DNA of 64,000 nt from Erodium maritimum (lineage: Eukaryota > Streptophyta > Magnoliopsida > Geraniales > Geraniaceae): contig OY997589.1 in the NCBI GenBank assembly GCA_963921825.1, positions 73,950,523-74,014,522 on the forward strand. Direction: 5' to 3'. Both the position numbers and the translations under genes were made by a program. Shown piece after piece: positions 13,082-62,352 of the stretch. Under the pieces are notes generated by a model that worked only from the letters and a program-made list of their open reading frames with translations, did not search any database and was not told the DNA's origin. The stretch's first letter is position 1. Each line of letters opens with the position of its first letter.

Positions 13082-13221
13082 GTGAACAAGATTATTTAAA
13101 CAAGATACGAATATATATAAATTAAGTTTGATTTTTTGGAGCGGTAATCAGCAAATGAATTTGCATTCCTTCGACCAGTTAGCAGGAAAGTCCAAGGAAT
13201 AGGATGGTATAATAAAAAAAA

Positions 13222-13710
13222 GGGAAAATATTATATTGGTACCCTTAACTATACGTTTTTAACACATTGGTACCCTTAACTAATTTAATCACTAAAAAGG
13301 TACCTTAAGTTTCCAATCAGTAACACGTTAGTGTTTTCCGTCCATTTTTTGACGGAAAATGGTCATGTGCAATGCACATGACCTTAAACGTTCAAAAAAT
13401 GACAAAAATACCCCTCTAAGTTCAAACCCTAATTATTCTTTTACCTTATTTCTTCTACGCAACTTTCATCTCCCCCATATTATTTCATACATACGCCTCC
13501 TTCACCTCCCTCGCCGTGAAAGTTAAGAGTCATTTTTTGAAAGTTTAAGGTCATGTGCATTGCACATAACCATTTTTTGTCCAAAAATGGACGGAAAACA
13601 CTAACGTGTTACTGATTGGAAACTCAAGGTACCTTTTTAGTGATTAAATTAGTTAAAGGTACCAATGTGATAAAAACGTATGGTTAAGGGTACCAATCTC
13701 ATATTTTCCC
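13222..13710. mobile_element. Long-TIR foldback MITE (Mutator-like), 489 bp
   Basis: The left end GGGAAAATATTATATTGG and the right end, reverse-complemented, GGGAAAATATGAGATTGG start inverted repeats that stay closely matched for about 185 bp. Only about 120 bp of spacer lies between them. The flanks taaaaaaaa (13,213-13,221) and taaaaaaat (13,711-13,719) match at 8 of 9 positions, as expected for a 9 bp Mutator-type TSD, although the A-rich context weakens this. Each inner TIR end contains a palindrome ggtcatgtgca/tgcacatgacc (13,361-13,383; degenerate copy 13,549-13,571). It has no coding capacity. Confidence 0.85.
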
Positions 13711-13859
13711 TAAAAAAATAGTTGAATTAACGAGTGAGTATTAATTTCTATTATTGGGCTCATAAAAGAAAACAAAAGTAATGCACGGGGAGTTTTCTAG
13801 TCATGGGTTTGTGGCGGCTTAAGGCAACCTCCACATGTATGCATGCCAAGTAGCTTACT

Positions 13860-20447: not shown

Positions 20448-22641
20448 TGTCACGCCCCAAATCCGGTTTTGACCGGACTCGAGACGTGAACTAAAACAAT
20501 AATAATTTTAATCGAAAATAAGCCAACAAGTCTCAATCTCAAAATTTTAAAACTTTAAACACCACGCGAGTCACAGCTCGGTAAAAACAAACGGTAAAAC
20601 AGTTCAAAATAAACGGTACGTCTCTAGACTATCTAGCCTAGGACCCTCGTAAGCTCCCAAGCATCGAGCATCCAGCTAGTACACTTCCCGCTTAGAACCT
20701 GAAAAACAACAAAGTAAGGGGTGAGCTTTCGCTCAGTAGGAAAAGTAGTTAAGGTTATAAGCAAGCGCTCACCACCACGGGTAACCGTCCAATCAGGGTA
20801 TACTAGTACGGCACACAACTAATTTCCAACGGAACTCGTAATCACACTCCTCAACTCAAGACCGAACCACACTTACCAACAGACTCAACGAACAAGCACA
20901 AACAGCAACCAGCACACAATTAACAAACATCGAACATAAAGTAAACTTTAAAGCACAAACACGTCCCGTACCGCAGTCCCCTACTCGGTCGGCTGTCCAC
21001 GGCCCGACACCCTCATATCGTACCGGAATATCATCGGCCTAGATATCTTCCCGTCGAACAACCGGGGCCAATCTCGAATAGTCATACCGGAATCTCCATC
21101 GGCCTAGACCTCTTTCCCAGAACTCCTTCGGGCAAAGGATAGGTGAAACAACTTTCCCGGAACTCCTTCGGGCAAAGCACAGAATACGTAACCGTCGGCC
21201 TAGACGTCCCACATCGGAGTACCCCCTCGATGCAGGCTATCGTACCAGAACCACTACCCGGGGGACCGCACCTACATGGGACCACACTGTCGGCCTAGGT
21301 ACTACCTACACCGGCGTACCCCCTCGGTCATAGGTACCATACTGGAAACAACTCCCGAACACATATCAAGATAATATTACAATTGACATAATTAAACACG
21401 GCTTACCGAGCCCAACAATCTTACCATAACCAGTCACGTCGGTCTATCACTCACCCGACCATATCACAACCAAGGGTTTCACATCAACACAACCACGGCA
21501 CACTCGCCCAAACATAACAACAACATGCTCAGCGGATATACTAAATCTTGTCTATTAACCCTAACGACACCGACTCATACGGCAGGCATCTCAAACAATA
21601 ACAGGCAATTCCAAAACAACACACAACCTACGGCTCGACAAGACCGATCTACCAGCACGGCAATTCCCAAGTATCGAAAACAGATAAAACAGTTAACTAG
21701 TGAATCCCGTCCTACATGTTACTACGACTCGTCCGATTATTATCTGATATAAACGTCTTTCTAGTTTTATTAATTCCTAATATGCATACTAGTAACTTTC
21801 CGCAATTAAACCGGTATCCGCTACTTCCCTACCTCAAGACGATACCACAGCAGCGTCTCCTAGCTGTTGACTACCGGGCCAACACCGTCTTCTAGGGCGA
21901 AGTCCGCATCTGGTTTAACTCCGGTCTTCTCTTCGCTCGAAGCCGAACTCTACTTTACACAGAAAGTTACAATGAAAACCAGTTTCACAATTTAAATTAA
22001 AAGGTTACGAAGGTCTCGATTTAAATTCAAAAGTTGTCTTTTAGACTCGAGCGGGCTAAAAACGGGATTACGACGAATCGGGTTCGAGCACCCGAGTACC
22101 GAAACCGGTGCACGTTTCCCGAGGCACGGTCCCAATGCACAGATCTCGAGGCACGATTTTCTTGGCACGATCCCAAGGTACGGGTTTCGTGGCACGGTTC
22201 CCGAGGCACCGTTTCAATGTTCCACTTTTATCTCGTTCAAGGTCCGTTTTAAAGTCTAGTTTCAACGTCCCACGTTCCAGATTCGTTCAATTGCTCAAAA
22301 CCCGTTTTAAAACAATATTATTTTAGTTTAAAACTCATTTTAAACCCTTTTTCTCATTTAATCAAAACTGGTTTTGTTTTTAAACATTTTCCCTTTGTAC
22401 AAATCAATCTCATTAATTTTATTTTTGATCTTTCCTTCTTTTGTTCCCGAACGGACCAGAAACCAGATCTGACACAAGGTTGATTCGCAGTTCAGATCCA
22501 ACAAAAACGCAACGGGGAAACGAAAAAGGGACGGAGAGGGGAAAACTCGGTTGACCTCGGACCGGCCACCGGCGGTGCCGTTGCCGGTCGAGGTCCCACG
22601 GGTCGTGAACTCACCGTAGGAGAAAGGGACGACCACGGGGA
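20448..22641 (-). mobile_element. Solo LTR A, part 1 (gypsy-type, interrupted by Ty1-copia)
   Basis: It starts TGTCACGCCCCAAATCCGG. On the minus strand this is the GGGGCGTGACA end shared by all large LTRs here. It is interrupted by the copia insertion at 22,642 (TSD gggga) and resumes at 31,101. Both parts total about 2.9 kb. The outer TSD atccg is exact (20,443-20,447 and 31,826-31,830). It contains the palindrome GAGCTTTCGCTC (20,723-20,734) and GC-rich repeats. No coding domains are seen. Confidence 0.85.
22085..22235. repeat. GC-rich ggcacgg-type repeat array in LTR A
   Basis: Repeated cgaggcacggt/ttggcacgat/gtggcacggt units occur every 20-25 bp. Homologous arrays are at 33,560-33,800 and 38,580-38,680 in LTRs C and B. 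Confidence 0.65.
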
Positions 22642-24329
22642 TGTTAGTCTTAGTGCCCGTAGTTCAATCCTAAATGTCCAAATGTATATATCATCGTTAG
22701 CAATAAAATTAAAGCGGCTTCATATTACTTATGTGTTGGAGTAATATATCGATGTGTGCTCTGATCTATGCCCACCATGCGAATAGAACCATAGATCGAG
22801 ATAGATCACACTCGATGGGTCCCTAGTCAACAAAGCTTCACTAGAAGCGACTAGTATGAAAGATGGCTCTTTATGGCTTACGTTCTGTTAGTCATTGGAA
22901 TGGGATTCCGGAGTCTGATCATAGATATCATGTGGGACATGATATTGGACGACCCGCCCTGAATATGTGCCATAGATTAAGTCATGAACATATTCAGTGT
23001 TGTAGCTTGTCATGTATCCTTAGACCAAGGAGTCTTTGTGATCGCTATGTAGTCAACAACTGAGTTTGACCTGAGCCTAACGTTGTCCGTAACAGGGCTT
23101 CCATAACGGCCAGGATTGGCTTGGGGACGGGCTACATGAGTGACACGAAAGACGTCTAAGGGATTTATCCCTCATACTAAGGTATGGGAAAGATATCGGT
23201 TCTCGGCCACTTGATCGAGAGTGACTGGAAGAATAGCATGGCCATGCACATGATACTGGGTATCATATCTTCAGTCATCTCACATATCAAGGAACGGTGA
23301 TTGAGAATAATAAGGATGACGGCTCTATGCCTTATCTCAATCAGGATATCGGAGATAAAAGGATAATGACAGGGACGACGGAAAGGTTAGAATCGACAGG
23401 GTCGATTCGCTATGTAGTGTCAGGCAATACTAAAGTCTCGTTAGTTGCCACTTAAATAGGATCAAGTAAAATGGGATTTTACGTTGATCTATTGACATGC
23501 ATAAACCTAAGGGTCACACCGGAGGATGAAACTCATTGACACATTTATGGAGAATGGCCAAAAGGGAGTTGTCTCGGGACATGACCAAAACTGGGTTTTG
23601 GGTCATGTGCCCGTAAGTGAATAGGACTTTACGGATCGAGACAAGGCTTGGAGTCTTGGGATTGATCGCGTCGGATAATGTTGGACATTTCCGGTATGGA
23701 AGGCATGGAGGCGATGAGCGAATCACGGGACCTCGTTGGAAATGGTCACGGGCCATGTTCCAAGAGGCCCATGAAAGGCCCATGCAACCAAGGCCCATGG
23801 AACTAATTAATCAAGTCTTGATTAATTAGTACTAAGTAAGCAAGACAAGGATTAAGGTGTTGGTGATTCACCACCTAACCCAATCTTGTCTTGCCATACT
23901 TTGTCCTATTTACACCTTACTTGACACCATACTTGTCCCATGCCTTTAGTTGGACAAGTATGGGTTTTGTTATGTTTAAGTCATCTTTTTTCAACATAAC
24001 AAACACAAGACAAGAATAGGAAACACATTTTCTCTCCCTCTTCCATGGCCATTTCGGGTTTGGCTAGTTTCCTCCTCCATTTTTGTGTTCTTGAGTCCTC
24101 AAAGAGAAGAACTACGTGGCTTTGATTCCCATGTGGATACGTAGGCGTCTTGGAGACTCAAGCCAATCATTCGTTAACCGGTGTTCTTGTTTTGGTAAGA
24201 ACTAGTGCTGAATTTTTCTCTTGTTAATCCATTCTTTGTTAGTTGTTTCATGGTTCTAATTGTCTCTTGGTTTTCATTGATTTTCCGCTGCGAGTTGGTT
24301 CATCTCCAACCCTACCTCGAGACCCAACA
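22642..24329 (+). mobile_element. 5' LTR of the Ty1-copia element
   Basis: It starts TGTTAGTCTTAG and ends CGAGACCCAACA, 1,688 bp. It is nearly identical to 29,408-31,095, with homologues at 34,317-36,004 and 56,944-58,630. Confidence 0.95.
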
Positions 24330-24330
24330 G

Positions 24331-24342
24331 TGGTATCAGAGC
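24331..24342 (+). other. Primer-binding site of the Ty1-copia element
   Basis: TGGTATCAGAGC is an exact match to the plant initiator-tRNA-Met-type PBS, one base after the LTR end. Confidence 0.95.
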
Positions 24343-25885
24343 CGTGCTACCTTCGGGATTCACAAGACGGTGTTCAAAGTTTCGGTTTTGCTTGAAAGTT
24401 TCGTTTTTGGCATGTTGTTTTGCTAAATTGTTTGATAACATGTTTTAAATTATTGTTTATGGATTTAATGCATGTAAAATGAATTTTTGAAAATTATTTC
24501 AAATCTGGAAATTTTGAAAAAAATTTGATTTTTCGGGTCTCGGGAGCGGGACTCTCGGGGAGCCGAAACCGGGACCGAACGGGGCTCCGTTGGACGGAGC
24601 TAGGCCAAGCATGACCATTGGATGGTTGATATGCCAAGGCTAAACCGTTTTGTTAGTTATGACGAGTTTGGAACCGTCATGACGAACTCGAAGATCAAAT
24701 GGTCAAAAGTTTCATTTTTGAACGGTTTCGATAAACCGAGCATCAAAAAATTTCGAAACTTGGCTATTAATTAAAACCGGAAAATCACATGATGCTTGAT
24801 AACATGCTTGTTTGATAACATGATGTGTGATGTGATGTTGGCATGGTGTACATAATAGCCCCGAGCTCAATTTAATTATTTATCGCTTTTCACGGCCTGC
24901 GAGCCGTTAGAGTTAACGTGTAATTATTCTTTCAAGGTGTGGTCGTCGAACCACTTGTTTGTAATATTTATTTATTCCCGACCTGCGAGTCGTGTATTAA
25001 ATTGTAATATTTTACTCAAGACGAAGAAATGGCGAAAAGGTCATTTGGTGGCTTTTCGGGTGTTGGCATCGGCTTGGAGTCGGTGGAGCTCAAGAAGCTA
25101 GTGGGAGTTAGTTTAGGGGGCTATTATGTGCACATTTATCGTTTTATGCTTGGTTTAGTTTATGCATGATTAATTCTATGTGTTTTAGAATTGCATGCTT
25201 AACTTTATTTACCGAGCATATCACCTCACATGCAAAGATAAAATTGGACTTTTAATCCTTGTGTGTGAACCCTTAGAACCGTCATTGCATTGGATGTAGT
25301 TGACGGGTTCAAAGGAAGAATTACATTGGATGTAATTTGAGGCATCATTGCATTTGGAATGTAGTTGATGTGCTCATCGCATCTAGGATGTGCCAAAGTT
25401 TTGAACACAACTGGACAAGTAAAAGCGGGTCATGTCCGATACCTCCCAATCATCAACACCTTACTACCTCCCCGTCCTATGGTTGTCGTGCGCATTAGCG
25501 GAGCATCCATGGGGAAGCGGGGTAGTAGGTTTGGACGACATATGTGGGTGTCGTGCGCATTAGCGGAGCACCTACATAGTGACGGGCCATAGTTGAAAAT
25601 TGGTGGACCCGACTACGATTCTCAGCCTGAGGTTGAGCTAGGGTAACAAATAGGGTAAGCCGTGTACATAAGTACATACCCTAGCCAAGAGTCACATTGG
25701 ATGTGATTGGATGGAGTCCTACCTACATAGCTCGATTAAGTGGTGAGCATTAGTTCAGCTTAATCGAGTGAATCAAGGATCTTGGTTTCAGATTCTAAAG
25801 GTTTAGAATTGATTGTTGGTGTTTAAGCTTGATCTTCATAAAATTTATTCAGTTTACTGATTGAATTTTATCTGTTGTAGATCAA
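24343..25885 (+). other. Long untranslated leader of the Ty1-copia element
   Basis: About 1.5 kb without coding features separates the PBS from gag. It holds a 19+ bp direct repeat (cgtgcgcattagcggagca at about 25,488 and 25,551) and several copies of a cattggatgta motif between 25,280 and 25,400. The packaging signal is expected here by analogy. Confidence 0.6.
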
Positions 25886-26396
25886 ATGGCAAATTCAGCG
25901 AACATTAATAGTTTGTCATTAAAAACCATTCTTGACAGGGTCAAGCTAAATGGGACAAACTATTTGGACTGGTACAGAATTTTGAGGATAGTCCTCAAGT
26001 CTGAACGCAAAGAATATGTCCTTGACAAGGCTGTCTCTAAGACCATATCAGAGTTACATGAAGTGTCATTAACTGCTGAGAAGAATATCTCAGGGATCTG
26101 GGATCCAAGGATATTCTGGTGGTCAACAAGGGAATTGGAAGTGGCAAGGGCTGGGCCCATGTGCACTTGGCAGGAAAGATGAGACACCTGAGAATGTCTG
26201 CTTCTACTGCCAACAGCCTGGTCATTGGAACCGGGATTACAGGAAGTTCACGGCTGATCTGAAGAAGGGCAGTGGGACTGCGCCTTCATCAAATAGCCTG
26301 GATGATCTGAAGAAGGGCAGTAGGACTGCGCCTTCATCAGGAAACCTGGATGATCTAAGGAAGGGCAGTGGGACCGTGCCTTCATTCGGTATTAAC
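25886..26396 (+). pseudogene. Ty1-copia gag relic with degenerate zinc knuckle and 16-residue tandem repeats
   Basis: The ATG at 25,886 starts a typical copia gag N-terminus (LNGTNYLDWYRILRIVLKSE). After about 60 codons most of the gag core is missing, and the sequence passes quickly, through a frameshift, to the zinc knuckle at 26,199-26,240. That knuckle reads CFYCQQPGHWNRDY, so its last ligand Cys is Tyr. Three 48 bp (16-residue) units built on DLKKGSGTAPSS follow. Intact Gag forms the particle and binds RNA through the knuckle. The minus-strand copy shares both the deletion and the Cys loss. Confidence 0.8.
26253..26396 (+). repeat. 48 bp tandem repeat, three units, in copia gag/protease linker
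   Basis: Three consecutive in-frame 48 bp units (26,253, 26,301, 26,349) encode a DLKKGSGTAPSS-type 16-mer. The same three units occur in the minus copy (about 61,660-61,800). Confidence 0.9.
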
Positions 26397-26426
26397 TCTA
26401 TAGAGCTACATCTCTCTACTTCCAAA

Positions 26427-26480
26427 GATTCATGGGTATTAGATACCAGGACTGAATCTCACACATGCACTTATATATAG
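26427..26480 (+). pseudogene. Ty1-copia protease active-site segment, mutated
   Basis: WVLDTRTESHTC occupies the position of the retropepsin active site. The invariant Gly after Asp-Ser/Thr is Arg, so the protease is expected to be inactive. An in-frame stop (TAG, 26,478-26,480) follows. The substitution is shared with the minus copy, whereas the stop is not (that copy has TGG). Confidence 0.75.
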
Positions 26481-26514
26481 TGGCTGAAAGTAGGAGAGGT
26501 TTGGAAAGCACGAA

Positions 26515-27480
26515 GTGGACCTCAGAGTTGTGGCAACTGCTGTAGGATCCATGAGTCTTGCTTTGCCAAGTGGCCTTGTCTTAGTATTGTATAATGTATA
26601 TTGCATACCTACTTTTAGTAGGAATATTATATCTGTATCCGTGTTTGACAAGGAAAGATATAATGTTAATATTGGAAATGGAGTTTTCAATGTTTTATGC
26701 AATGATATGTTTTATACACGTACTGACTTGGTTGGAGGATTGTACTTATTAGATATGGGTAACAATGCCTCAAGTTCTATATATTCCGTTAACACCAAGA
26801 GGTCTAAATCCAACGATTTAAACCTAACTCTGTTAAGGCACTGTCATCTAGATCGCATAAACAAGAAGCACCTATCAGCACTTCAGAAGTGCGGACTTTC
26901 AGGTTCATTCGAATTCCATTCGATCGATAGGTGCAAGGTTTGTTTGATGGGCAAAATGACTAAAGTGCCCTTTTATCGATCGCGATGAAAGGGCGGGTGA
27001 ATTATTGGGGCTGATACACTCGAATGTGTGTAGATCAATAAGTTCACTTGCCAGGAGGGGTTTTAGCTACTTTATCAGATTTACTGATGATTACAGTAAA
27101 TATGGTTATGTCTATTCGCTGAGACATAAGTCTGAAGCTTTTGATAAATTCAAAGAGTTTAAGACTAAAGTAGAAAACCAGCTCGACAAAGGTATTAAGG
27201 CACTTCGATTGGATCGAGGTGGAAAATACTTGACCACAGAGTTATTAGATCATCTAAAAGAGAATGAGATTCTTTTGGAATGGACTCCTCTTGGGACACT
27301 GTAGATGAAAGGTGTAGCCAAACGGAGAAATCGGACATTGTTAGACAATGGTCCGTTCCATTATTAGTTGGACTGATCTCCCAATCTCTTTCTGGGGTTA
27401 TGCTCTAGAGACGACCGCATTCATAGTGAATCGGGCTTCGACGAAGGGTGTGGAAGGGACACCATTTTAAAATGGTACGG
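26515..27480 (+). pseudogene. Ty1-copia GAG-pre-integrase and integrase core, catalytic residues lost
   Basis: 26,515-26,988 contains the pre-integrase HHCC-like part (HCHLDRINKKHLSALQKCG, CKVCLMGKM). A frameshift near 26,985 leads to 27,005-27,304 with the core (FSYFIRFTDDYSKYGYVYS and LRLDRGGKY). The first acidic residue of the DDE triad is Asn (LIHSNVC), the second Asp is kept (RLDRGG), and the third Glu is Lys (GVAKRRNRT, about 27,309-27,335). Integrase inserts the cDNA; this one cannot be catalytic. All three states are the same in the minus copy. Confidence 0.85.
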
Positions 27481-27889
27481 GATGATGCCCGCTTTGTCCT
27501 TCCTAAAGATTTGTGGTTGCGAGGCTTGTGTGAAACATTTGGTTTCGACTAAGCTCGAACCAAGATCTGAGATATGCACCTTCGTGTGGTGTCCCAAAGC
27601 AACAAGGGGATACTATTTCTACAATCCCAGTGAGAACATGGTGTTCGTCGCATGGGGTGGGGTCTTTATGGAAAAGGAGTTTTGTTTCCAAAGACGTCAT
27701 TGGGAGGACTGTGCATCTCGAAGAAATTCAGGATGGTACAGATCTGTCTAAACCAATTGGCAACCCAGTAGAAAGGAGCCAGAGATTGTCGTAGAGTAAG
27801 AACCAATTCCTGTTACAATTCCGAAAGGTCCAAGGCGATTTGAAAGGATCAATCTTCCACCTCCAGGATATGGTATCCGGAGGTGACAA

Positions 27890-28820
27890 TGAAGTCATGG
27901 TGGATCACGATGATCCAGCCACCTTTCAGGAAGTCGTGGATGGGCCCAACTCCGAGTTATGGCTGGGAGCCATGAGGGAGGAAATGCAATCCATGTCGGA
28001 CAACCGAGTCTGGGAACCGGTTGATCCCATCAATGGTGTGAGGACCATCGGATGCAAATGGATCTTCAAGGTGAAGATGGACATGGATGGCAACCCTCTG
28101 ACCTACAAAGCTCAACTGGTGGCGAAAGGTTATAGGCATGGATTGACTATGAGGAAACCTTCTCCTTAGTGGCTATGGTCAAAATCGATCCAAATTCTTC
28201 TTGACATAACTGCGTATCATAATTACGAGATATGGCAAGTGGATGTCAAAACCGCTTTCCTAAATGGAAATTTGACTGAGTACGTTTGTATGTCTCGGCC
28301 CAAAGGTTTTGACGATCCGAAGAATAAAGGAAAGATTTATAAGTTGTTGAAATCCATTTATGGATTGAAACGAACTTCTCGGAGTTGGATCCTTCGTTTT
28401 GATGAAGCTGTAATTGGATTTGGCTTAATCAAGAACGAGGATGAATCTTGCGTTTATAAGAAGGCTAGTGGGAGCAAGATTACCTTTCTGGTTCTCATTG
28501 AAAACGACATCCCAACCTTGCACGAGACTAAAGCTTGGTTGAGGAAGTGTTTTTCAATAAAGGACTTAGGCGATGCTTCTTATATCTTAAGGATTCAGAT
28601 ATGTAGAGATCGCACCAAGAGGGTCTTGGATTTAAGTCAGGGAACCTATGTGAACAAGGCATTGAGTAGGTTCTTAATGCTCGATTCAAAGAAAGGACTC
28701 TTACCCACTAGTCATGGCATTCATCTCAGCAAGACTCAGTGTCCTAAGACACCTGATGAGCTGAAAAGGATGATGAGAATCCTATGCGCCTGGGGGCAGG
28801 ATCGATCATATATGCCATGA
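27890..28820 (+). pseudogene. Ty1-copia reverse transcriptase relic lacking the YVDD loop
   Basis: Two open stretches hold the N-terminal fingers (ELWLGAMREEMQSM, GCKWIFKVKMDMDGN) and the palm (VDVKTAFLNGNLTEYVCM, IYGLKRTSRSW). The first catalytic Asp in VDVKTAF is present. At about 28,480-28,520 the frame passes from FLVLIE directly to NDIPTL, so the segment that should contain the YxDD catalytic turn is absent. The deletion is identical in the minus copy. After 28,790 another deletion leads to RNase H. Confidence 0.88.
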
Positions 28821-28899
28821 CATGTATGAGACCAGACGTCTCGTAAGCCTTATGTTGTACCAGTAGACATCATTCTAACCCGGGGGAAAGATGATGCTG

Positions 28900-29256
28900 A
28901 ACTAGTCGTCGAAGGATGAGTAGACGCTAGTTTTCCAAGACAAATCCAGATGACTTTAGAAGTCAATCAGGATATGTGTTTACGCTGAATGGCAGAGCTT
29001 TAGCTGGGAAAGCGTAAAGCAAGATACCATTGCCGAATCTACGACAGAGGCCAAGTACATGGATGCTGCAGAGGCAGCTAAGGAGGCTATGTGGATTTGG
29101 AAATTCATGGCAGGGCTGGGTGTAATTAAAAACCCATCCAGTCCGGTGAATCCATCTTGCGACAACACAAGGGCCATTGCGCAAGCTAAAAGCCTAGATC
29201 ACATAACAAATCCAAACATGTACTGCGGCGTATCCACCTCATCAGATAAATACTGA
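28900..29256 (+). pseudogene. Ty1-copia RNase H relic
   Basis: TTEAKYMDAAEAAKEAMW and DNTRAIAQAKS mark the RNase H domain, with frameshifts near 28,920 and 29,010. The position normally occupied by an acidic residue in the EAEY motif is Lys. It ends at a stop before the PPT. Confidence 0.75.
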
Positions 29257-29392
29257 ACTGAGGTGAAGTGAAGATAACCGATATTGCAACAGATGATAAC
29301 ATAGCCAACCCTTTGACTAAGGCAGTGTCACTGCCTGAACATGTTAGACATGTAAAGTCGATGGGGACATATTGGAGTTTAGATTGGAACTA

Positions 29393-29407
29393 GGGCAAGT
29401 GGGAGAT
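29393..29407 (+). other. Polypurine tract of the Ty1-copia element
   Basis: gggcaagtgggagat directly precedes the 3' LTR start TGTTAG. Confidence 0.8.
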
Positions 29408-31095
29408 TGTTAGTCTTAGTGCCCGTAGTTCAATCCTAAATGTCCAAATGTATATATCATCGTTAGCAATAAAATTAAAGCGGCTTCATATTACTTATGT
29501 GTTGGAGTAATATATCGATGTGTGCTCTGATCTATGCCCACCATGCGAATAGAACCATAGATCGAGATAGATCACACTCGATGGGTCCCTAGTCAACAAA
29601 GCTTCACTAGAAGCGACTAGTATGAAAGATGGCTCTTTATGGCTTACGTTCTGTTAGTCATTGGAATGGGATTCCGGAGTCTGATCATAGATTAAGTCAT
29701 GAACATGATATTGGACGACCCGCCCTGAATATGTGCCATAGATTAAGTCATGAACATATTCAGTGTTGTAGCTTGTCATGTATCCTTAGACCAAGGAGTC
29801 TTTGTGATCGCTATGTAGTCAACAACTGAGTTTGACCTGAGCCTAACGTTGTCCGTAACAGGGCTTCCATAACGGCCAGGATTGGCTTGGGGACGGGCTA
29901 CATGAGTGACACGAAAGACGTCTAAGGGATTTATCCCTCATACTAAGGTATGGGAAAGATATCGGTTCTCGGCCACTTGATCGAGAGTGACTGGAAGAAT
30001 AGCATGGCCATGCACATGATACTGGGTATCATATCTTCAGTCATCTCACATATCAAGGAACGGTGATTGAGAATAATAAGGATGACGGCTCTATGCCTTA
30101 TCTCAATCAGGATATCGGAGATAAAAGGATAATGACAGGGACGACGGAAAGGTTAGAATCGACAGGGTCGATTCGCTATGTAGTGTCAGGCAATACTAAA
30201 GTCTCGTTAGTTGCCACTTAAATAGGATCAAGTAAAATGGGATTTTACGTTGATCTATTGACATGCATAAACCTAAGGGTCACACCGGAGGATGAAACTC
30301 ATTGACACATTTATGGAGAATGGCCAAAAGGGAGTTGTCTCGGGACATGACCAAAACTGGGTTTTGGTTCATGTGCCCGTAAGTGAATAGGACTTTACGG
30401 ATCGAGACAAGGCTTGGAGTCTTGGGATTGATCGCGTCGGATAATGTTGGACATTTCCGGTATGGAAGGCATGGAGGCGATGAGCGAATCACGGGACCTC
30501 GTTGGAAATGGTCACGGGCCATGTTCCAAGAGGCCCATGAAAGGCCCATGCAACCAAGGCCCATGGAACTAATTAATCAAGTCTTGATTAATTAGTACTA
30601 AGTAAGCAAGACAAGGATTAAAGTGTTGGTGATTCACCACCTAACCCAATCTTGTCTTGCCATACTTTGTCCTATTTACACCTTACTTGACACCATACTT
30701 GTCCCATGCCTTTAGTTGGACAAGTATGGGTTTTGTTATGTTTAAGTCATCTTTTTTCAACATAACAAACACAAGACAAGAATAGGAAACACATTTTCTC
30801 TCCCTCTTCCATGGCCATTTCGGGTTTGGCTAGTTTCCTCCTCCATTTTTGTGTTCTTGAGTCCTCAAAGAGAAGAACTACGTGGCTTTGATTCCCATGT
30901 GGATACGTAGGCGTCTTGGAGACTCAAGCCAATCATTCGTTAACCGGTGTTCTTGTTTTGGTAAGAACTAGTGCTGAATTTTTCTCTTGTTAATCCATTC
31001 TTTGTTAGTTGTTTCATGGTTCTAATTGTCTCTTGGTTTTCATTGATTTTCCGCTGCGAGTTGGTTCATCTCCAACCCTACCTCGAGACCCAACA
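29408..31095 (+). mobile_element. 3' LTR of the Ty1-copia element
   Basis: 1,688 bp, the same length as the 5' LTR. It differs by a clustered patch at 29,691-29,704 and by single changes near 30,368 and 30,622. Confidence 0.95.
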
Positions 31096-31100
31096 GGGGA

Positions 31101-32005: not shown

Positions 32006-32698
32006 TGTCACGCCCCAAATCAGGTTTTGATCAGACTCGAGACGTGAACTAGGAATAATACTTAAATAATAAATAAAAAGAAATTTAATAATGCAATCTC
32101 CGTGAAAAACTTAATTCAAATCCAAAGTTAAGAGTCAACCGCTCGTTCCAACAGAATAACAGAAACTATAGTTTAATACAAAGGGCAGTACGTCTCTAAA
32201 CCATAAAATCACCCGAATCCTCAGGGAGCTCCAGAGCCCTGAGATCACCTCTAGGTCTACTCATCAAAGAAACCTGTAAAAACAGTAAACACGAAGGGGG
32301 TGAGCTTACGCTCAGTAGGAAAAAGTAGTAAAATAAAAGAACCCCCGCTTTGACTACAAAATTACCGATTAGTATGATTATCCAAAAGACACCATAATTA
32401 GAGATCAACAAGAATTACAACACTTAATAACATAGTAATTCCAGGAGATTAACGGGGAAACAGCTTAGTGATCAATATAACAACTAAAGACACACAAGTA
32501 CAGAAAAATATAGATAATTTAAACCACAAGACTTCGATCCACACACAAACCAACACATCGTACCGGAATGCCCCTCGGTCACGGTGGGACACATATCATC
32601 GGGACTACCGGAAATGTTCCCACAAGGAACACATATCATCGAGGCTCCCAAAAATTTCTCCAAAGGGACACAGATCATCGGGGTGAAACAAGATATCC
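32006..32698 (-). mobile_element. Solo LTR B, part 1
   Basis: It starts TGTCACGCCCCAAATCAGG and carries the palindrome GAGCTTACGCTC at 32,302-32,313. It is interrupted by solo LTR C at 32,699 (TSD tatcc). Confidence 0.85.
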
Positions 32699-34316
32699 TG
32701 TAAGAACCACTCCCGGTCGATCCCGGTCGAACCGGTGAATTCTAGACAAGTTTGACTTTCGGCCGGAAAAGTCAATCGATGACTCAGGAAGTCATTCGGG
32801 ACCTTTCCGGGGCCCAAAAAGCTTTCCGTCATCACGGTTATCTTAGTTGGGCCATTTCCTTCAGTTTGACTGTAATATTGGTTAGGTCAAATTTCGGTCA
32901 AACTTGGACTTTATATCGGTCTTTTTTCGATAAAACCTTGGAAAGCTGGAAATTAATTAAATGGAAGTGACCCCACATGACACTTGTCATGTTTGGCTTG
33001 GAGGATGAGAAAGGAGCTTCAATTGACTCTTATACCCTCCCAACTTACCTTTAAAGGGATAGGACCTTAAGGGCTTTTTGGTAATTGGACAAAATAGGTC
33101 ATTTAAAGCAACATGAGCACACAAATCAGCTCATTCCTTATTGTTGCAGCCGAAAATCACAAGGAGAGAAGAGGAGAAGAGCTCATTTCTTGAGGAAGAA
33201 GAAAGAGAAGAAAGCTTGCATTTTGGAGCTTGTTCTTAGTCCTTTTGCCTCCATTTTCCTTCCATCTTCTTCATCTCACCATCCTAGAGGTATGGATGCT
33301 CTCAACTCTCCATTTCATCTACTCTCAAATTTGGGTTTTTTGGCTTGAAGTTGAAGAACTAGCTTTTTGGTTGTTACTTGGAGAAGAAGTAGTGAAGTAG
33401 GTTGCTTGGATTGTGTTTTTGGTTGAAGTTTTGATGAACCCATTGAGGGTGTTGATGTTTGGAGACTTTGGATGAACATTTTGGAGTTGGGAGCACTTGG
33501 AAATGTGGTTTTTGATTTGATTTTCATGAAACTCGAGTTGGGGAAGAAAGGGGAGGATCTGGTTAGGTCTGGTGCGGAACGTGAACTGGACCGGGCCATG
33601 TGCCGGCACGGCAGGCCGCCAGAACGGGCTTGGTACCGGCACGGTACGTGGCACGGAACGTGCTAGACTCCGGCACAGTACCTCACACGGTCCGTGTCAG
33701 ACTCCGGGCCGGTCTGTGACGCGGTCCGTGCTGGTTCCCGGGCCGGACTGTGATACGGTCCGTGCCAAGTTCCGGCACGGCCAGCCACACGGTCCGGATT
33801 GCATTCCGGATCAGACCCCCAGAACCAAAAACCCTTCCTTTTAGCCCATTTCGATTTCTAGATCACTTCCTTGACCTTATTTCCATTGTTTGGGGCTTAT
33901 TCTGTAAATTTTGGGTTGAGGAACACTCCGTTGGGTTACTAATTTTGGTATTGTTGTGCTCCAAGACCGTGAGCCCGAGCTCAAGAGAAGGAAAGGCCTT
34001 GGACCCGAGCTAGAGAGTCGAACATCACTCCGATACCTGTGTGAAGAACGGAGGAGCGACTAACCGGCTTTACAACAGAGTTTTAGAGGAACACCACAAG
34101 GTAGGGAAAGTCCTAACTACTCGAGTATTTCAATACTTAGTATGCCTATTAGGTTAATAAAATCGGAAAGGTCCTAGAATTGCATATAGGATGCGAATAA
34201 CTAGAATAAATGTGTTTCAATTACTAATAAATGGACGTGTATAGTATGTATGCATATGATGAGAATAATTAGTGTAACTCGTTTTCAATACTTGGGAATT
34301 GTTTTACTGTCAGAGA
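32699..34316 (+). mobile_element. Solo LTR C, part 1 (nested in solo LTR B)
   Basis: It starts TGTAAGAACCACTCCCGG. The TSD tatcc is exact (32,694-32,698 and 37,416-37,420). It is interrupted by a copia solo LTR at 34,317. Its ends match solo LTR B in opposite orientation, so B and C belong to one subfamily. Total length without the copia LTR is about 3.0 kb. Confidence 0.9.
33560..33800 (+). repeat. GC-rich cacggtccgtg-type minisatellite in LTR C
   Basis: Units with ccggcacgg / cacggtccgtg recur every roughly 35-45 bp, about six times. Confidence 0.75.
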
Positions 34317-36004
34317 TGTTGGGTCTCGAGGTAGGGTTGGAGATTAACCAACTCGCAACGGAAAATCAATAAAAACCAAGAGACGATTAAAACCATGAAA
34401 CAACTAACAAAGAATGGATTCACATGAGAAAAATTCAGCACTAGTTCTTACCAAAACAAGGACACCGGGTAACGAATGATTGGCTTGAGTCTCCAAGACG
34501 CCTACGTATCCACATGGGAATCAAATCCACGTACTTCTTCTCTTTGAGGACTCAAGAACATAAAAATGGAGGTGGGAGCTTGCCAAACCCGAAATTGCAA
34601 GGGAAGGGGGAGAGAAGTTGTGTTTCCTATTCTTGTCTTGTGTTTGTTATGTTGAAAAAAGATCACTTAAACATAACAAAACTCATACTTGTCCAACTAA
34701 AGGCATGGGACAAGTATGGTGTCAAGTAAGGTGTAAATAGGACAAAGTATGGCAAGACAAGATTGGGTTAGGTGGTGAATCACCAACACCTTAATCCTTG
34801 TCTTGCTTACTTAGTACTAATTAATCAAGACTTGATTAATTAGTTCCATGGGCCTTGGTTGCATGGGCCTTTCATGGGCCTCTTGGAACATGGCCCGTGG
34901 CCATTTCCAACGAGGTCCCGTGATTCGCTCATCGCCTCCAAGCCTTCCATACCGGAAATGTCCAACATTATCCGACGCGATCAATCCCAAGACTCCAAGC
35001 CTTGTCTCGATCCGTAAAGTCCTATTCACTTACGGGCACATGACCCAAAACCCATTTTTGGTCATGTCCCAAGACAACTCCCTTTTGGCCATTGTCCATA
35101 AATGTGTCAATGAGTTTCATCCTTCGGTGTGACCCTTAGGTTTATGCATGTCAATAGATCAACGTAAAATCTCATTTTACTTGATCCTATTTAAGTGGCA
35201 ACTAACGAGACTTTAGTATTGCCTGACACTGCATAATGAATCGAACCTGTCGATTCTAACCTTTCCGTCGTCCCTGTCATTATCCTTTTATCTCCGATAT
35301 CCTGATTGAGATAAGGCATAGAGTCGTCATCCTTATTATTCTCAATCACTGTTCCTTGATATGTGAGATGACTGAAGATATGATACCCAGTATCATGTGC
35401 ATGGCCATGCTATTCTTTCAGTCACTCTCGATCAAGCGGCCGAGAACCGATATATTTCCCATACCTCAGTATGAGGGATAAATCCCTTAGCCGTCTTTCG
35501 TGTCACTCATGTAGCCAGTCCCCAAGCCAATCCTGGCCGTTATGGAAGCCCTGTTACGGACAACGTTAGGCTCAGGTCAAACTCAGTTGTTGACTACATA
35601 GCGATCACAAAGACTCCTTGGTCTAAGGATACATGACAAGCTACGACAATGAATATGTTCATGACTTGATCTATGGCACATATTCATGTCGGATCGTCCA
35701 ATATCATGTCCCACATGATATCTATGATCAGACTCCGGAATCCCATTCCAATGACTAACAGAACGTAAGCCATAAAGAGCCATCTTTCATACTAGTCGCT
35801 TCTAGTGAAGCTTTGTTGACTAGGGACCCATCGAGTGTGATCTATCTCGATATATGGTTCTATTCGTATGGTGGGCATAGATCAGAGCACACATCGATAT
35901 ATTACTCCAACACATAAGTAATATAAAGCCGCTTTAATTTTATTGCTAACGATGATATATACATTTGGACATTTAGGATTGAACTACGGGCACTAAGACT
36001 AACA
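34317..36004 (-). mobile_element. Solo LTR of the Ty1-copia family (1,688 bp), TSD agaga
   Basis: On the minus strand it starts TGTTAGTCTTAG at 36,004 and ends CCCAACA at 34,317. Exact TSDs agaga lie at 34,312-34,316 and 36,005-36,009. It is homologous along its whole length to the LTRs at 22.6 and 29.4 kb, with scattered substitutions, so it is older than or from a different source than that insertion. Confidence 0.95.
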
Positions 36005-36009
36005 AGAGA

Positions 36010-37415
36010 GGCCGTGATGAGCCCTCATATTAGTTGTTGTGTTAGGTTCACATGTTTGGTTGCTTAGTTGGATAAGTTAAGAGTCTAACGAAACTAGCTA
36101 AATCGTATGCTCGATTGTTTGGTTGAATATTTGCATAATGGGTTGATTGGATGTTTACATGATTGATTGATGGATTGATTGTTGAATAATTGAATGCTTG
36201 AACGGATGATCGAGTATGACTGATTGTGCCAAACGGTACGATCAGGTGATCCATGGACCGGTGGATTGTGGCAGGTAAGTATACGGTAAGTGTAGAGAAA
36301 TAAGTGAATGTCTTTGGTGTGTTATGGTGAGTGTGTGATTCTATAAGTGTTGGTTAATTGAGATGTTATTGTGTGATTCTCTTATTTCTTTCTTAAGATG
36401 TTCGGTTGTTCGGTTTGGTACTTACACCGGAGGGGGGGTAATCCGGTGGCATTATGGTCGTTGGTGTTGGCAGATCATGTGGGTTAATGAGTAGGCATCG
36501 ATTATTTTACCCTGCGGGGAGTTGATTATTGGAGCTTGTGGGCATTGATTATTGGACCCTGCGGGGCATTGGTTAACGGAGCCTGCGGGCAATTGGATGG
36601 TTTACCTTGCGGGGAAGTGGTTATGTATGGTTTCACCCAAGTGTATGCGTCCTGCGGGAGCATTACCTTGGTTCCCTATGACATATGGTCCCTTGGGGGC
36701 ATTTCCGGGAATCCCGACGATGAGCATCCCTCGGTGATGGTTTCCGGTTCCCCGATGTATGTGCCTCCTCTGGACCGAGGGAAAATATGATAGGATATGG
36801 GTACTCTGGTGGATAGGAATATGGGAACCGATGTGACATCAGAATCTATCCGTGGATCGGAGGGTTGAGAAAGCAAGTGGTTGGCGTGATATTAATTACT
36901 CCCATTTTAGTAGTTATGATTCGTTATAGTCCTTTTCATGGAATCTTTTAAATTACTGTTATCCTTGAAAATGCGGTACTATTCTTATTTATTCTGTTTA
37001 CTAGCATTGCATTGTTAATTATATTCAAATCCTTAATTATGTCATCTTATTAAAGCAGTTTTATTATTGATCTAAAGGTTGAGTTGTTGCGATTTTTCCA
37101 ACTGAGCGTAAGCTCACCCCTGTGGTTTTCTTACTGTTTTACAAGCGTACCTGATGTCTAGTGAGTTCGAGGCTCGGGAGCTTCTAGACATCTTGGGGAT
37201 TGTTCTAGAGTTGTGTTGGTCATGTGTCCTAAACATTATTTATCTTGCACTTATGTCGAGTTTTGACTCATATTGAGATTTTCGAATTATTTACTTATGA
37301 TGATTTTGATGGAGTTTATTTGAGATTTTAAAGGTTTTATCAATTGTCTAGTATTTTCTATTATTAACTCAGGTCACGTCTCGAGTCCGGTCAAAACCGG
37401 ATTTGGGGCGTGACA
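36010..37415 (+). mobile_element. Solo LTR C, part 2
   Basis: It resumes after the copia LTR and ends GGGGCGTGACA. It contains a 24 bp-period array (36,520-36,620, ttggaccctgcggggcatt type) and the palindrome GAGCGTAAGCTC (37,104-37,115). Confidence 0.88.
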
Positions 37416-54494: not shown

Positions 54495-54776
54495 TGTCAC
54501 GCCCCAAATCCGGTTTTGACCGGACTCGAGACGTGAACTATAATAATAATTAAAAGATAAAGATAAAAGAAAACTTAAACGAATTAAATCTCCAAATTTA
54601 GTTTCAACACAAATCACTCCGATAATCAAAAACCAAATTCGATGCTATGAGTCAAAAGCTCAAAATAAAATAAGTAAGACAATGTTTGAATACGAGATGA
54701 ACAAGTACGTCTCTACTACAGTAACCACCCGGACCCTCAATGAGCTCCCAAGCCATGAGATGTCCTACAAGCCTGC
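54495..54776 (-). mobile_element. Truncated 3' LTR of the gypsy (Tekay-like) element
   Basis: It starts TGTCACGCCCCAAATCCGG and matches the LTR beginning at 56,777 for its shared length. It breaks off at about 54,776 and joins gag sequence, so the rest of the LTR, pol and integrase are deleted. Confidence 0.75.
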
Positions 54777-56761: not shown

Positions 56762-56773
56762 ACTCTGATACCA
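56762..56773 (-). other. Primer-binding site of the gypsy element, copy 1
   Basis: TGGTATCAGAGT on the minus strand, 3 bp from the LTR end at 56,777. The second copy is at 63,940-63,951. Confidence 0.85.
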
Positions 56774-56943: not shown

Positions 56944-58630
56944 TGTTGGGTCTCGAGGTAGGGTTGGAGATGAACCAACTCGCAGCGGAAAATCAATGAA
57001 AACCAAGAGACGATTAAACCATGAAACAACTAACAAAGAATAGATTCACAAGAGAAAAATTCAGCACTATTTCTTACCAAAACAAGAACACCGGTTAACG
57101 AATGATTGGCTTGAGTCTCCAAGACGCCTACGTATCCACATGGGAATCAAAGCCACGTAGTTCTTCTCTTTGAGGACTCAAGAACACAAACATGGAGGTG
57201 GGAGCTTGCCAAACCCGAAATGGCCATGGAAGAGGGAGAGAAAATGTGTTTCCTATTCTTGTCTTGTGTTTGTTATGTTGAAAAAAGATGACTTAAACAT
57301 AACAAAACCCATACTTGTCCAACTAAAGGCATGGGACAAGTATGGTGTCAAGTAAGGTGTAAATAGGACAAAGTATGGCAAGACAAGATTGGGTTAGGTG
57401 GTGAATCACCAACACCTTAATCCTTGTCTTACTTACTTAGTACTAATTAATCAAGACTTGATTAATTAGTTCCATGGGCCTTGGTTGCATGGGCCTTTCA
57501 TGGGCCTCTTGGAACATGGCCCGTGGCCATTTCCAACGAGGTCCCGTGATTCGCTCATCGCCTCCAAGCCTTCCATACCGGAAATGTCCAACATTATCCG
57601 ACGCGATCAATCCCAAGACTCCAAGCCTTGTCTCGATCCGTAAAGTCCTATTCACTTACGGGCACATGACCCAAAACCCAGTTTTGGTCATGTCCCGAGA
57701 CAACTCCCTTTTGGCCATTCTCCATATATGTGTCAATGAGTTTCATCCTCCGGTGTGACCCTTAGGTTTATGCATGTCAATAGATAAACGTAAAATCCCA
57801 TTTTACTTGATCCTATTTAAGTGGCAACTAACGAGACTTTAGTATTGCCTGACACTGCATAGCGAATCGACCCTGTCGATTCTAACCTTTCCGTCGTCCC
57901 TGTCATTATCCTTTTATCTCCGATATCCTGATTGAGATAAGGCATAGAGCCGTCATCCTTATTATTCTCAATCACCGTTCCTTGATATGTGAGATGACTG
58001 AAGATATGATACCCAGTATCATGTGCATGGCCATGCTATTCTTTCAGTCACTCTCGATCAAGCGGCCGAGAACCGATATCTTTCCCATACCTCAGTATGA
58101 GGGATAAATCCCTTAGCCGCCTTTCGTGTCACTCATGTAGCCCGTCCCCAAGCCAATCCTGGCCGTTATGGAAGCCCTGTTACGGACAACGTTAGGCTCA
58201 GGTCAAACTCAGTTGTTGACTACATAGCAATCACAAAGACTCCTTGGTCTAAGGATACATGACAAGCTACGACAATGAATATGTTCATGACTTAATCTAT
58301 GGTACATATTCAGGGCGGGTCGTCCAATATCATGTCCCACATGATATCTATGATCAGACTCCGGAATCCCATTCCAATGACTAACAGAACGTAAGCCATA
58401 AAGAGCCATCTTTCATACTAGTCGCTTCTAGTGAAGCTTTGTTGACTAGGGACCCATCGAGTGTGTTCTATCTCGATCTATGGTTCTATTCGCATGGTGG
58501 GCATAGATCAGAGCACACATCGATATATTACTCCAACACATAAGTAATATAAAGCCGCTTTAATTTTATTGCTAATGATGATATGTACATTTGGACATTT
58601 AGGATTGAACTACGGGCACTAAGACTAACA
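56944..58630 (-). mobile_element. 3' LTR of the truncated Ty1-copia element
   Basis: 1,687 bp. On the minus strand it runs TGTTAGTCTTAG ... GAGACCCAACA. Confidence 0.93.
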
Positions 58631-58781
58631 ATCTCCCACTTGCCCTAGTTCCAATCTAAACTCCAATATGTCCCCATCGACTTTACATGTCTAACATGTT
58701 CAGGCAGTGACACTGCCTTAGTCAAAGGGTTGACTATGTTATCATCTGTTGCAATATCGGTTATCTTCACTTCACCTCAGT

Positions 58782-58990
58782 TCAGTATTTATCTGATGAG
58801 GTGGATACGCCGCAGTACATGTTTGGATTTGTTATGCGATCTAGGCTTTTAGCTTGCGCAATGACCCTTGTGTTGTCGCAAAATGGATTCACCGGACTGG
58901 ATGGGTTTTTAATTACACCCAGCCCTGCCATGAATTTCCAAATCCACATAGCCTCCTTAGCTGCCTCTGCAGCATCCATGTACTTGGCCT
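58782..58990 (-). pseudogene. RNase H relic of the minus copia
   Basis: TEAKYMDAAEAAKEAMW and the CDNTRVIAQAKS segment, the same domain state as 28,900-29,256. Confidence 0.75.
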
Positions 58991-59238
58991 CTGTCGTAGA
59001 TTCGGCAATGGTATCTTGCTTTACGCTTTCCCAGCTAAAGCTCTGCCATTCAGCGTAAACACATATCCTGATTGACTTCTAAAGTCATCTGGATTTGTCT
59101 TGGAAAACTAGCGTCTACTCATCCTTCGCCGACTAGTTCAACATCATCTTTCCCCCGGGTTAGAATGATGTCTACTGGTACAACATAAGGCTTACGAGAC
59201 GTCTGGTCTCATACATGTCATGGCATATATGATCGATC

Positions 59239-60130
59239 CTACCCCGAGGCGCATAGGATTCTCATCATCCTTTTCAGCTCATCAGGTGTCTTAGGACACT
59301 GAGTCTTGCTGAGATGAATGCCATGACTAGTGGGTAAGAGTCCTTTCTTTGAATCGAGCATTAAGAACCTACTCAATGCCTTGTTCACATAGGTTCCCTG
59401 ACTTAAATCCAAGACCCTCTTGGTGCGATCTCTACATATCTTAATCCTTAAGATATGAGAAGCATCGCCTAAGTCCTTTATTGAAAAACACTTCCTCAAC
59501 CAAGCTTTAGTCTCGTGCAAGGTTGGGATGTCGTTTTCAATGAGAACCAGAAAGGTAATATTGCTCCCACTAGCCTTCTTATAAACGCAAGATTCATCCT
59601 CGTTCTTGATTAAGCCAAATCCAATTACAGCTTCATCAAAACGAAGGATCCAACTCCGAGAAGTTCGTTTCAATCCATAAATGGATTTCAACAACTTATA
59701 AATCTTTCCTTTATTCTTCGGATCGTCAAAACCTTTGGGCCGAGACATACAAACGTACTCAGTCAAATTTCCATTTAGGAAAGCGGTTTTGACATCCACT
59801 TGCCATATCTCGTAATTATGATACGCAGTTATGTCAAGAAGAATTTGGATCGATTTTGACCATAGCCACTAAGGAGAAGGTTTCCTCATAGTCAATCCAT
59901 TGGATCTGCCTATAACCTTTCGCCACCAGTTGAGCTTTGTAGGTCAGAGGGTTGCCGTCCATGTCCATCTTCACCTTGAAGATCAATTTGCATCCTATGG
60001 TCCTCACACCATTGATAGGATCAACCGGTTCTCAGACTCGGTTGTCCGACATGGATTGCATTTCCTCCCTCATGGCTCCCAGCCATAACTCGGAGTTGGG
60101 CCCATCCACGACTTCTTGAAAGGTGGCTGG
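59239..60130 (-). pseudogene. Reverse transcriptase relic of the minus copia, YVDD loop absent
   Basis: An open stretch of 186 codons (59,799-59,239) starts at MDVKTAFLNGNL. FLVLIE is followed directly by NDIPTL at about 59,520-59,560, as in the + copy. The N-terminal RT part lies at 59,900-60,130 with shifts. Confidence 0.85.
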
Positions 60131-60699
60131 ATCATCGTGATCCACCATGACTTCATTGTCACCTCCGGATACCATATCTTGGAGGTGGAAGATTGATCCT
60201 TTCAAATCGCCTTGGACCTTCCGGAATTGTAACAGGAATTGGTTCTTACTCTACGACAATCTCTGGCTCCTTTCTACTGGGTTGCCAATTGGTTTAGACA
60301 GATCTGTACCATCCTGAATTTCTTCGAGATGCACAGTCCTCCCAATGACGTCTTTGGAAACAAAACTTCTTTTCCATAAAGACCCCACCCCAAGCGACGA
60401 ACACCATGTTCTCACTGGGATTGTAGAAATAGTATCCCCTTGTTGCTTTGGGATACCACACGAAGGTGCATATCTCAGATCTTGGTTCGAGCTTAGTCGA
60501 AACCAAATGTTTCACATAAGCCTCGCAACCACAAATCTTTAGGAAGGACAAAGCGGGCATCATCCCGTACCATTTTAAAATAGTATCCCTTCCACACCCT
60601 TCCTCGAAGCCCGATTCACTATGAATGCGGTCGTCTCTAGAGCATAACCCCAGAAAGAGATTGGGAGATCAGTCCAACTAATCATGGAACGGACCATTG

Positions 60700-61529
60700 T
60701 CTAACAATGTCCGATTTCTCTGTTTGGCTACACGTTTCAACTACAGTGTCCCAGGAGGAGTCCATTCCTAAAGGATCCCATTCTCTTTTAGATGATCTAA
60801 TAACTCTATGGTCAAGTATTTTCCACCTCGATCCAATCGAAGTGCCTCAATACCTTTGTCGAGCTGGTTTTCTACTATAGTCTTAAACTCTTTGAATTTA
60901 TCAAAAGCTTCAGACTTATGTCTCATTGAATAGACATAACCATATTTACTATAATCATAAGTAAATGTGATAAAGTAGCTAAAACCCCTCCTGACAAGTG
61001 AAGTTATTGGTCTACACACATTCGAGTGTATCAGCCCCAATAATTCACCCGCCCTTTCATCGCGATCGATAAAGGGAACTTTAGTCATTTTACCCATCAA
61101 ACAAACCTTGCACCTATCGATCGAATGGAATTCGAAAGAACCTGAAAGCCCGCACTTGTGAAGTGCTGATAGATGCTTCTTGTTTATGCGGCCCAAATGA
61201 CAGTGCCATAACAGAGTTAGGTTTAAATCGTTGGATTTAGACCTCTTGGTATTAACGGAATATATAGAACTTGAGGCATTGTTACCCATATCTAATATGT
61301 ACAATCCTCCAACCAAGTCAGTACTGGTATAAAACATATCATTGCATAGAACATTGAAAACTCCATTTCCAATATTAACATTATATCCTTCCTTGTCAAA
61401 CATGGATACAGATATAATATTCCTACTAAAAGTAGGTATGCAATATACAGTATACAATACTAAGACAAGGCCTCTTGGCAAAGCAAGACTCATGGATCCT
61501 ACAGCAGTTGCCACAACTCTAAGGTCCAC
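60700..61529 (-). pseudogene. Pre-integrase and integrase of the minus copia, catalytic residues lost
   Basis: A single open frame of 253 codons (61,529-60,768) covers HCHLGRINKKHLSALHKCG and CKVCLMGKM, then the core. LIHSNVC (Asn for Asp) and LDRGGKY are visible, and GVAK/RVAK follows in the next frame at about 60,725-60,745. This copy is more intact in frame than the + copy but has the same active-site losses. Confidence 0.87.
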
Positions 61530-62158
61530 TTCGTGCTTTCCAAACCTCTCCTACTTTCAACCACCATATATAAGTGCATGTGTGAGATTCAGTCCTGGTA
61601 TCTAATACCCATGAATCTTTGGAAGTAGAGAGATGTAGCTCTATAGAGTCAATACCGGATGAAGGCACGGTCCCACCGCCCTTCCTTAAATCATCCGGGT
61701 TTCCTGATGAAGGCGCAGTCCTACTGCCCTTCTTCAGATCATCCAGGCTATTTGATGAAGGCGCAGTCCCACTGCCCTTCTTCAGATCAGCCGTGAACTT
61801 CCTGTAATCCCGGTTCCAATGACCAGGCTGTTGGCAGTAGAAGCAAACATTCTCAGGTGTCTCATCTTTCCTGCCAAGTGCGCATGGGCCCCGCCCTTGC
61901 CACTTCCAATTCCCTTGTTGACCATCAGAATATCCTTGGATCCCAGATCCCTGATATATTCTTCTCAGCAATTAATGACACTTCATGTAACTCTGATATG
62001 GTCTTAGAGACAGCCTTGTCAAGGACATATTCTTTGCGTTCAGACTTGAGGACTATCCTCAAAATTCTGTACCAGTCCAAATAGTTTGTCCCATTTAGCT
62101 TGACCCTGTCAAGAATGGTTTTTAATGACAAACTATTAATGTTCGCTGAATTTGCCAT
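61519..62158 (-). pseudogene. gag, zinc knuckle and protease of the minus copia
   Basis: The gag start at 62,158 (MANSANINSLSLK) runs to 61,925. An overlapping frame 61,971-61,519 holds CFYCQQPGHWNRDY, the three 16-residue repeats and WVLDTRTESHTC. Here the frame is continuous from knuckle through protease, unlike the + copy. Confidence 0.85.
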
Positions 62159-62352
62159 TTGATCTACAACAGATAAAATTCAATCAGTAAACTGAATAAA
62201 TTTTATGAAGATCAAGCTTAAACACCAACAATCGATTCTAAACCTTTAGAATCTGAAACCAAGATCCTTGATTCACTCGATTAAGCTGAACTAATGCTCA
62301 CCACTTAATCGAGCTATGTAGGTAGGACTCCATCCAATCACATCCAATGTGA

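Follow-up and report, generated by a model that had tools for sequence, protein, structure and literature searches.

A coding-degenerate Ty1-copia family in Erodium maritimum, probably copied by proteins supplied in trans

How can a retrotransposon have inserted recently when none of its own proteins appears able to work? This question is raised by a stretch of 64,000 nucleotides from Erodium maritimum (assembly GCA_963921825.1, contig OY997589.1, positions 73,950,523 to 74,014,522 of the forward strand), hereafter called the window, in which two copies of one Ty1-copia family reside. Copy 1 (22642-31095, plus strand) consists of two long terminal repeats (LTRs), target-site duplications (TSDs), a primer binding site (PBS), a polypurine tract (PPT) and a ruined gag-pol region. 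Copy 2 lies on the minus strand. The ends of copy 1 are intact and its insertion is recent, the lesions are common to both copies, and the two insertion sites are separate. We consider it probable, at about 85%, that these copies belong to a non-autonomous, coding-degenerate family that is copied via proteins supplied in trans.

Ends, age and coding remnants of copy 1

Comparison of the window with itself and alignment of the LTRs placed the 5' LTR of copy 1 (1,688 bp, TGTTAG...CCAACA) at 22642..24329 and the 3' LTR, also 1,688 bp long, at 29408..31095. The element is bordered by the TSD GGGGA at 22637..22641 and again at 31096..31100. One nucleotide past the 5' LTR follows the PBS TGGTATCAGAGCC (24331..24343), which we take to be of the initiator-Met type; an 18-nt pattern that includes the LTR end matches once in the window, where 0.03 matches are expected. 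A long leader of about 1.56 kb (24330..25885) precedes the gag remnant, and a PPT identified by eye (29393..29407) adjoins the 3' LTR. With TG...CA LTR ends, a PBS, the PPT seen by eye and a TSD of 5 bp, copy 1 has the structure of a Ty1-copia LTR retrotransposon, and the near-identical LTRs of 1,688 bp with exact TSDs given in a preliminary description of this DNA are borne out.

The two LTRs of copy 1 differ at 10 of 1,688 sites, and 8 of these are packed into 10 nt. The patch belongs to a 20-nt string with a second occurrence 51 bp further down this LTR; the string is double in the 3' LTR (29687-29706 and 29738-29757) and single in the 5' LTR, which looks like the outcome of a template switch or of local conversion. 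Because the 8 clustered differences lie within this repeated string, they are best counted as one event, and the divergence of the pair as 2 point substitutions plus one clustered event. Dating by LTR divergence, a check that had been proposed for this element, yields a raw age of 0.23 million years at a substitution rate of 1.3e-8, and the insertion is younger still if the patch is one event.

The coding state was read from stop-to-stop frames, Pfam domains and comparison with a relative termed L002. This was the one plant-like contig returned by a related-DNA search of genome contigs; it is filed under a bacterium and served as yardstick. Its reading frame is uninterrupted over 1,092 codons and extends from gag over most of the reverse transcriptase (RT), but a stop at 3370-3372 falls short of 3405, where the RT match ends, so that L002 does not represent a complete intact element. 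Note that this plant-type copia gag-pol frame (L002:94-3372) resides in scaffold 49 of Labilibacter sediminis, a bacterial genome record, and probably reflects contamination of the public genome set. Among viral contigs, the same kind of search gave one distant locus (L001, 28%), which was set aside, and the exact 20-nt LTR start had no match in the viral contigs.

The Pfam remnants of copy 1 follow the copia order, Gag, protease, integrase and RT, with an RT of the RVT_2 type, as in Ty1-copia elements. All lie on the plus strand. Of gag, an N-terminal remnant is left (25886..26179), 47 amino acids of which align to L002; the gag core is gone in both copies, with no counterpart above 22 bits to L002 residues ~75-277. 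The zinc knuckle (26199..26240; PF00098, E 2e-4) reads C-x2-C-x4-H-x4-Y, i.e., its last Cys has become Tyr (CCHY). Three similar units with a 48-nt spacing lie between knuckle and protease (26267-26390), and the same spacing is found in copy 2. At the protease active site (26442..26450) copy 1 reads VLDTR, with DTR in place of DTG. A beta-barrel / GAG-pre-integrase remnant (26494..26985; PF22936 and PF13976, both under the Pfam cut-off in copy 1) is followed by that of the integrase core (26960..27322; PF00665), in which the first Asp is replaced by Asn (27023-27025), a stop is present at 27302-27304 and the Glu is replaced by Lys (27320-27322), so that the catalytic triad is N-D-K (HSN / RLDRGG / VAKRR). 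The SH3-like region (27377..27748; PF25597) is out of frame with both neighbours. The RT is left as an N-terminal remnant (27795..28166) and a main remnant (28170..28817), with a Pfam match to PF07727 (E 5.8e-27); its catalytic YxDD turn is deleted at ~28497-28502, where copy 1 reads FLVLIENDIPTL (FLVL-IE-NDIPTL). A stop-to-stop open segment (28960..29253) occupies the expected place of the RNase H, and a Pfam search of this segment gave no match. At the corresponding sites L002 has CCHC, DTG, HTD / RSDRGG / VSERR and, in the RT, FLVLYVDDILLIGNNIPSL. Every lesion named for copy 1 in the preliminary description, from the missing gag core to the lost turn, was thus recovered. As judged from these remnants, neither copy encodes a Gag, protease, integrase or RT predicted to work.

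Two insertions with common lesions

Copy 2 comprises a 3' LTR of 1,687 bp (56944..58630) and an internal region (58631..62352), both on the minus strand. Its active-site states are those of copy 1, except that VAKQR stands in place of VAKRR beside the same Lys, and over the 45 nt that span the RT deletion the two copies do not differ. Frames were followed by searching with L002 in 50-residue pieces and recording the frame of each piece. The resulting path is 3-1-2-3-1-3-1-3-1-3-1 for copy 1 and 3-1-2-3-2-3-2-3-1 for copy 2. Eight frame changes are common to both, two are private to copy 1, where they fit a 1-nt difference near 26967 and a 7-nt difference near 28137, and none is private to copy 2. 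The identical deletion, the equal active-site states and the 8 joint frame changes lead us to the view that the coding capacity had been lost before either copy inserted.

Copy 2 starts exactly at its LTR end, inside a repeat that is also present at 54495-54658, and by eye this other version continues past the insertion point. When 1 kb on each side of copy 1 was compared with 1 kb beside copy 2 at its visible end, the one notable match was an 87-bp piece (83%) of the same repeat that copy 2 had entered; it lies ~0.9 kb downstream of copy 1, at a non-corresponding position. The lesions are therefore common to two separate insertions, as befits a non-autonomous, coding-degenerate family. The repeat pieces at 54495-54658 and 56777-56943 are 95% alike and both start with TGTCACGCCCC, the second adjoining a TGGTATCAGAG site on the minus strand; they are probably LTR pieces of another retroelement, the target of the copy 2 insertion. 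A third piece of this repeat lies near 32006-32101 (80%).

The other end of copy 2 is cut at 62352 by a duplication junction; its 5' LTR and its TSD either lie outside the window or have been lost. The intact ends claimed for both copies accordingly stand for copy 1, whereas copy 2 shows only its 3' LTR in the window; that it carries every one of the listed lesions was corroborated. Copy 2 lies within a 7,178-bp tandem duplication, of which the window shows one unit (55175-62352) and the beginning of the next (62353-64000), with 3 mismatches in the 1,648 bases up to the window end and CTCT common to both sides of the junction. This duplication is either real or made by assembly. Inspection by eye also led to the rejection of copy 2 as cargo between LTR-like repeats starting at 55175 and 62353, because the repeat start lacks the TG typical of LTRs, the period is 7,178 bp and CTCT is found on both sides.

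A solo LTR of the same family (34317..36004, minus strand, TSD AGAGA) brings the number of family LTRs in the window to four. The first ten and last ten bases of all four are identical, and the 20-nt LTR start occurs four times in the window with zero mismatches. The solo LTR differs by ~3-4% from the other family LTRs. The sequences on either side of it (34083-34316 and 36005-36355) match 41112-41344 and 41340-41681, which places it inside another repeat.

Differences between the LTRs number 28 for the 5' LTR of copy 1 versus copy 2, and 52 and 47, respectively, for each of these versus the solo LTR. These counts apportion ~16.5 changes to the branch of copy 1 and 11.5 to that of copy 2. Since the LTRs of copy 1 differ from each other by only 2 points and the patch, most of its 16.5 changes precede its insertion, and the template of copy 1 was by then already diverged from that of copy 2 and already dead. 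The sequences point to at least one retrotransposition of a dead template using proteins made elsewhere, and most likely to two. Retrotransposition still took place for an element whose Gag, protease, integrase and RT all appear non-functional, as the preliminary description had it.

With a template that had diverged and died before insertion, we infer that the proteins were supplied in trans, the supplier presumably being a copia relative with the same PBS and LTR ends. On this model, the cis features recognised by the copying machinery (LTR ends, PBS, long leader and PPT) would be kept while gag-pol decays. Transcripts started in the element's own LTR would enter particles that a working relative assembles and be reverse-transcribed there, and the integrase of that relative would insert the complementary DNA.

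Weighing the possible histories

The decay of the RT was compared with that of relatives from protein searches, of which 120 of 689 RT matches and 120 of 356 matches of a further search were listed and used. Of the 120 listed RT relatives, 111 carry YxDD, 8 have a box with point changes and one (P0119) has a deletion; the 9 lacking YxDD were excluded before conservation was counted and the tree built. None of the 120 listed carries the YxDD deletion of the copies. Among the 111 relatives, conservation reaches 95% or more in 62 RT columns, and 8 to 9 of these are gaps in the copies. Ten of the 53 columns covered in both copies are changed, identically in both (95% interval of the proportion 0.09-0.32), and not a single one is changed in one copy only; the proportion changed in the 111 relatives averages 0.023 and does not exceed 0.083. 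These shared columns, together with the 45 identical nucleotides, the precise ends and the different flanks, uphold the claim that the listed lesions predate both insertions. A rough neutral estimate from the conserved RT sites is ~0.09 per site, ~4 times the 0.022 found between the internal regions. Motif patterns were also counted in 120 listed relatives, whose proteins are partial: the first Asp was found in 94, the Glu in 55, the protease motif in 6 and CCHC in 19, while the CCHY knuckle occurred in 0 of these 120 partial proteins.

An RT tree was built from 206 columns and 111 of 114 sequences, i.e., the two copies and 109 relatives, with a midpoint root; three sequences, L002 among them, were dropped for coverage. 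The two copies form a pair with tips of 0.009 and 0.012 on a stem of 0.262, which takes in any time during which the ancestor was still working. The nearest of the listed RT relatives, P0006 (72% identity over 79% of the query), has a YVDD turn; it clusters with the pair, P0024 and P0042 as one of five sequences (support 0.98). The long LTR, the long leader and the RT wording presumably reflect a resemblance to Angela/BARE; the listed relatives carry no lineage names.

A number of points weigh against a long-dead family served in trans. The low background of changed columns in the 111 relatives is partly built in, because these very sequences served to define which columns count as conserved. 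One of the 120 listed relatives, P0119, is also without the RT turn, via a different, larger deletion. The terminal branches of the relatives have a median of 0.079 and a maximum of 0.313, and the path from the midpoint root to the tip is longer in seven relatives than in copy 1, so that the long stem of the pair is by itself unexceptional. In the beta-barrel-integrase part, 54 columns at the 90% cut show 6 changes common to both copies, 3 private to copy 1 and 2 private to copy 2, and 25 columns at the 95% cut show 2, 2 and 1, respectively. Counted over majority columns, shared departures amount to 42 and 19, private ones to 6 and 5, and columns departing differently in both copies to 2 and 5. 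The private changes in the beta-barrel-integrase columns indicate that decay continued after the copies had split. The RT result should not be stretched to the whole of pol, and the decay outside the RT would not all be demonstrably old. Differences between the copies fall 18/18/31 on the three codon positions (p 0.08; knuckle-protease piece excluded, 26 bases overlapping between two pieces), and this third-position excess may count as weak evidence against strict neutrality. The comparison embraces only two internal regions, with the 5' end of copy 2 out of view, and no supplier was seen in the window, where a tblastn search of the 64 kb with L002 listed copies 1 and 2 only.

The most durable alternative retains the supply in trans and differs in its history. 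An old insertion may have decayed in place, with its transcript then copied in trans once or twice, so that no long-lived parasitic lineage existed. A single source copy would leave every changed conserved RT column common to both copies and none private, as observed, and only two internal regions are known. Against a single fossil speak the ~16.5 LTR changes of copy 1, which mostly arose before insertion and probably call for at least two diverged dead sources, and, outside the RT, the private changes on both sides (3 and 2 of the 54 columns above). We consider this history possible and, on the whole, rather unlikely. At the other extreme, the family might be a fully dead parasite lineage with an age several-fold that of the separation of the copies, its packaged RNAs recombining and its useless gag-pol kept for packaging or length and not by inertia. 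This is a speculative proposal that we hold to be doubtful. The locus raises the question of whether such parasites are long-running lineages or fossils copied occasionally.

Could the copies be alike for another reason, namely gene conversion or duplication at the DNA level, in which case the lesions would not be dated before two insertions? The internal regions show 82 differences, 42 of which fall in ~900 bp at 26585-27485 and 40 in the other 2,822 bp. Note that the Fisher p of 1e-7 for this patchiness is too good, since the region was picked by eye after viewing the profile. Recombination of packaged RNAs or gene conversion would produce such a patch, and a tandem duplication is indeed present at copy 2. 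However, the visible insertion ends are precise, the flanks differ apart from the 87-bp repeat piece, and outside the patch the LTR and the internal region have diverged to a similar degree (28/1,687 versus 40/2,822), so that a conversion would have to take in almost the entire element. We regard this explanation as very improbable. Broken copies of plant retrotransposons are common, and a wheat paper treats dead-on-arrival copies (PMC9744471); nevertheless, separate breakage of an ordinary autonomous family after insertion was rejected on the identical RT deletion and is practically out of the question, given that the copies agree in their active-site states and in 8 frame changes and that the LTRs of copy 1 are too similar for so much decay after insertion.

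Other features of the window are an open frame at 15889-16500 with a SABATH-type methyltransferase domain (PF03492, E 3e-53), for which a protein search gave 2 matches (43% and 40%), an open frame on the minus strand at 45309-46028 with an RRM domain (PF00076), a 183-bp inverted repeat (13221-13403 / 13529-13711) whose arms are 94% identical and 125 bp apart, and a second repeat family, a long direct repeat (1703-4224 / 46190-48843) in two pieces that are 79% and 85% identical.

Trans-dependent elements in other plants

A trans-dependent lifestyle is already known in plant retrotransposons, and the present copies almost certainly represent one further family of this kind. A direct precedent is BARE2 of barley, a copia element unable to make Gag, whose RNA is found in virus-like particles and packaged in those of BARE1 (PMC3735527). 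In BARE2 a conserved deletion ends Gag expression and the RNA in particles has been demonstrated (PMC3735527), whereas in E. maritimum the enzymes appear dead as well and the case is made from sequence only. Tos17 of rice is likewise an incomplete copia element that still transposes, and it is reported to move without gag (PMC3977881).

In wheat, which offers another direct precedent, only about half of the RLC_Angela elements have coding capacity, and gene conversion and template switching are named as routes by which LTRs pass between sub-populations (PMC9744471). There, autonomous partners with more than 85% DNA identity are known and large sets of copies were analysed (PMC9744471), while here two internal regions could be compared. 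RLG_Sabrina and RLG_WHAM resemble the family in relying on the enzymes of another family, but they are Gypsy elements, are semi-autonomous since some encode Gag, and share few motifs with their partners (PMC9744471). By analogy, the mechanism proposed here would be the same as in the wheat, BARE2 and Tos17 precedents. What E. maritimum appears to add is one more family, a two-copy case in which the loss of Gag, protease, integrase and RT is placed before a recent insertion, and with all four proteins lost by then, dependence on proteins supplied in trans would follow from the sequence alone.

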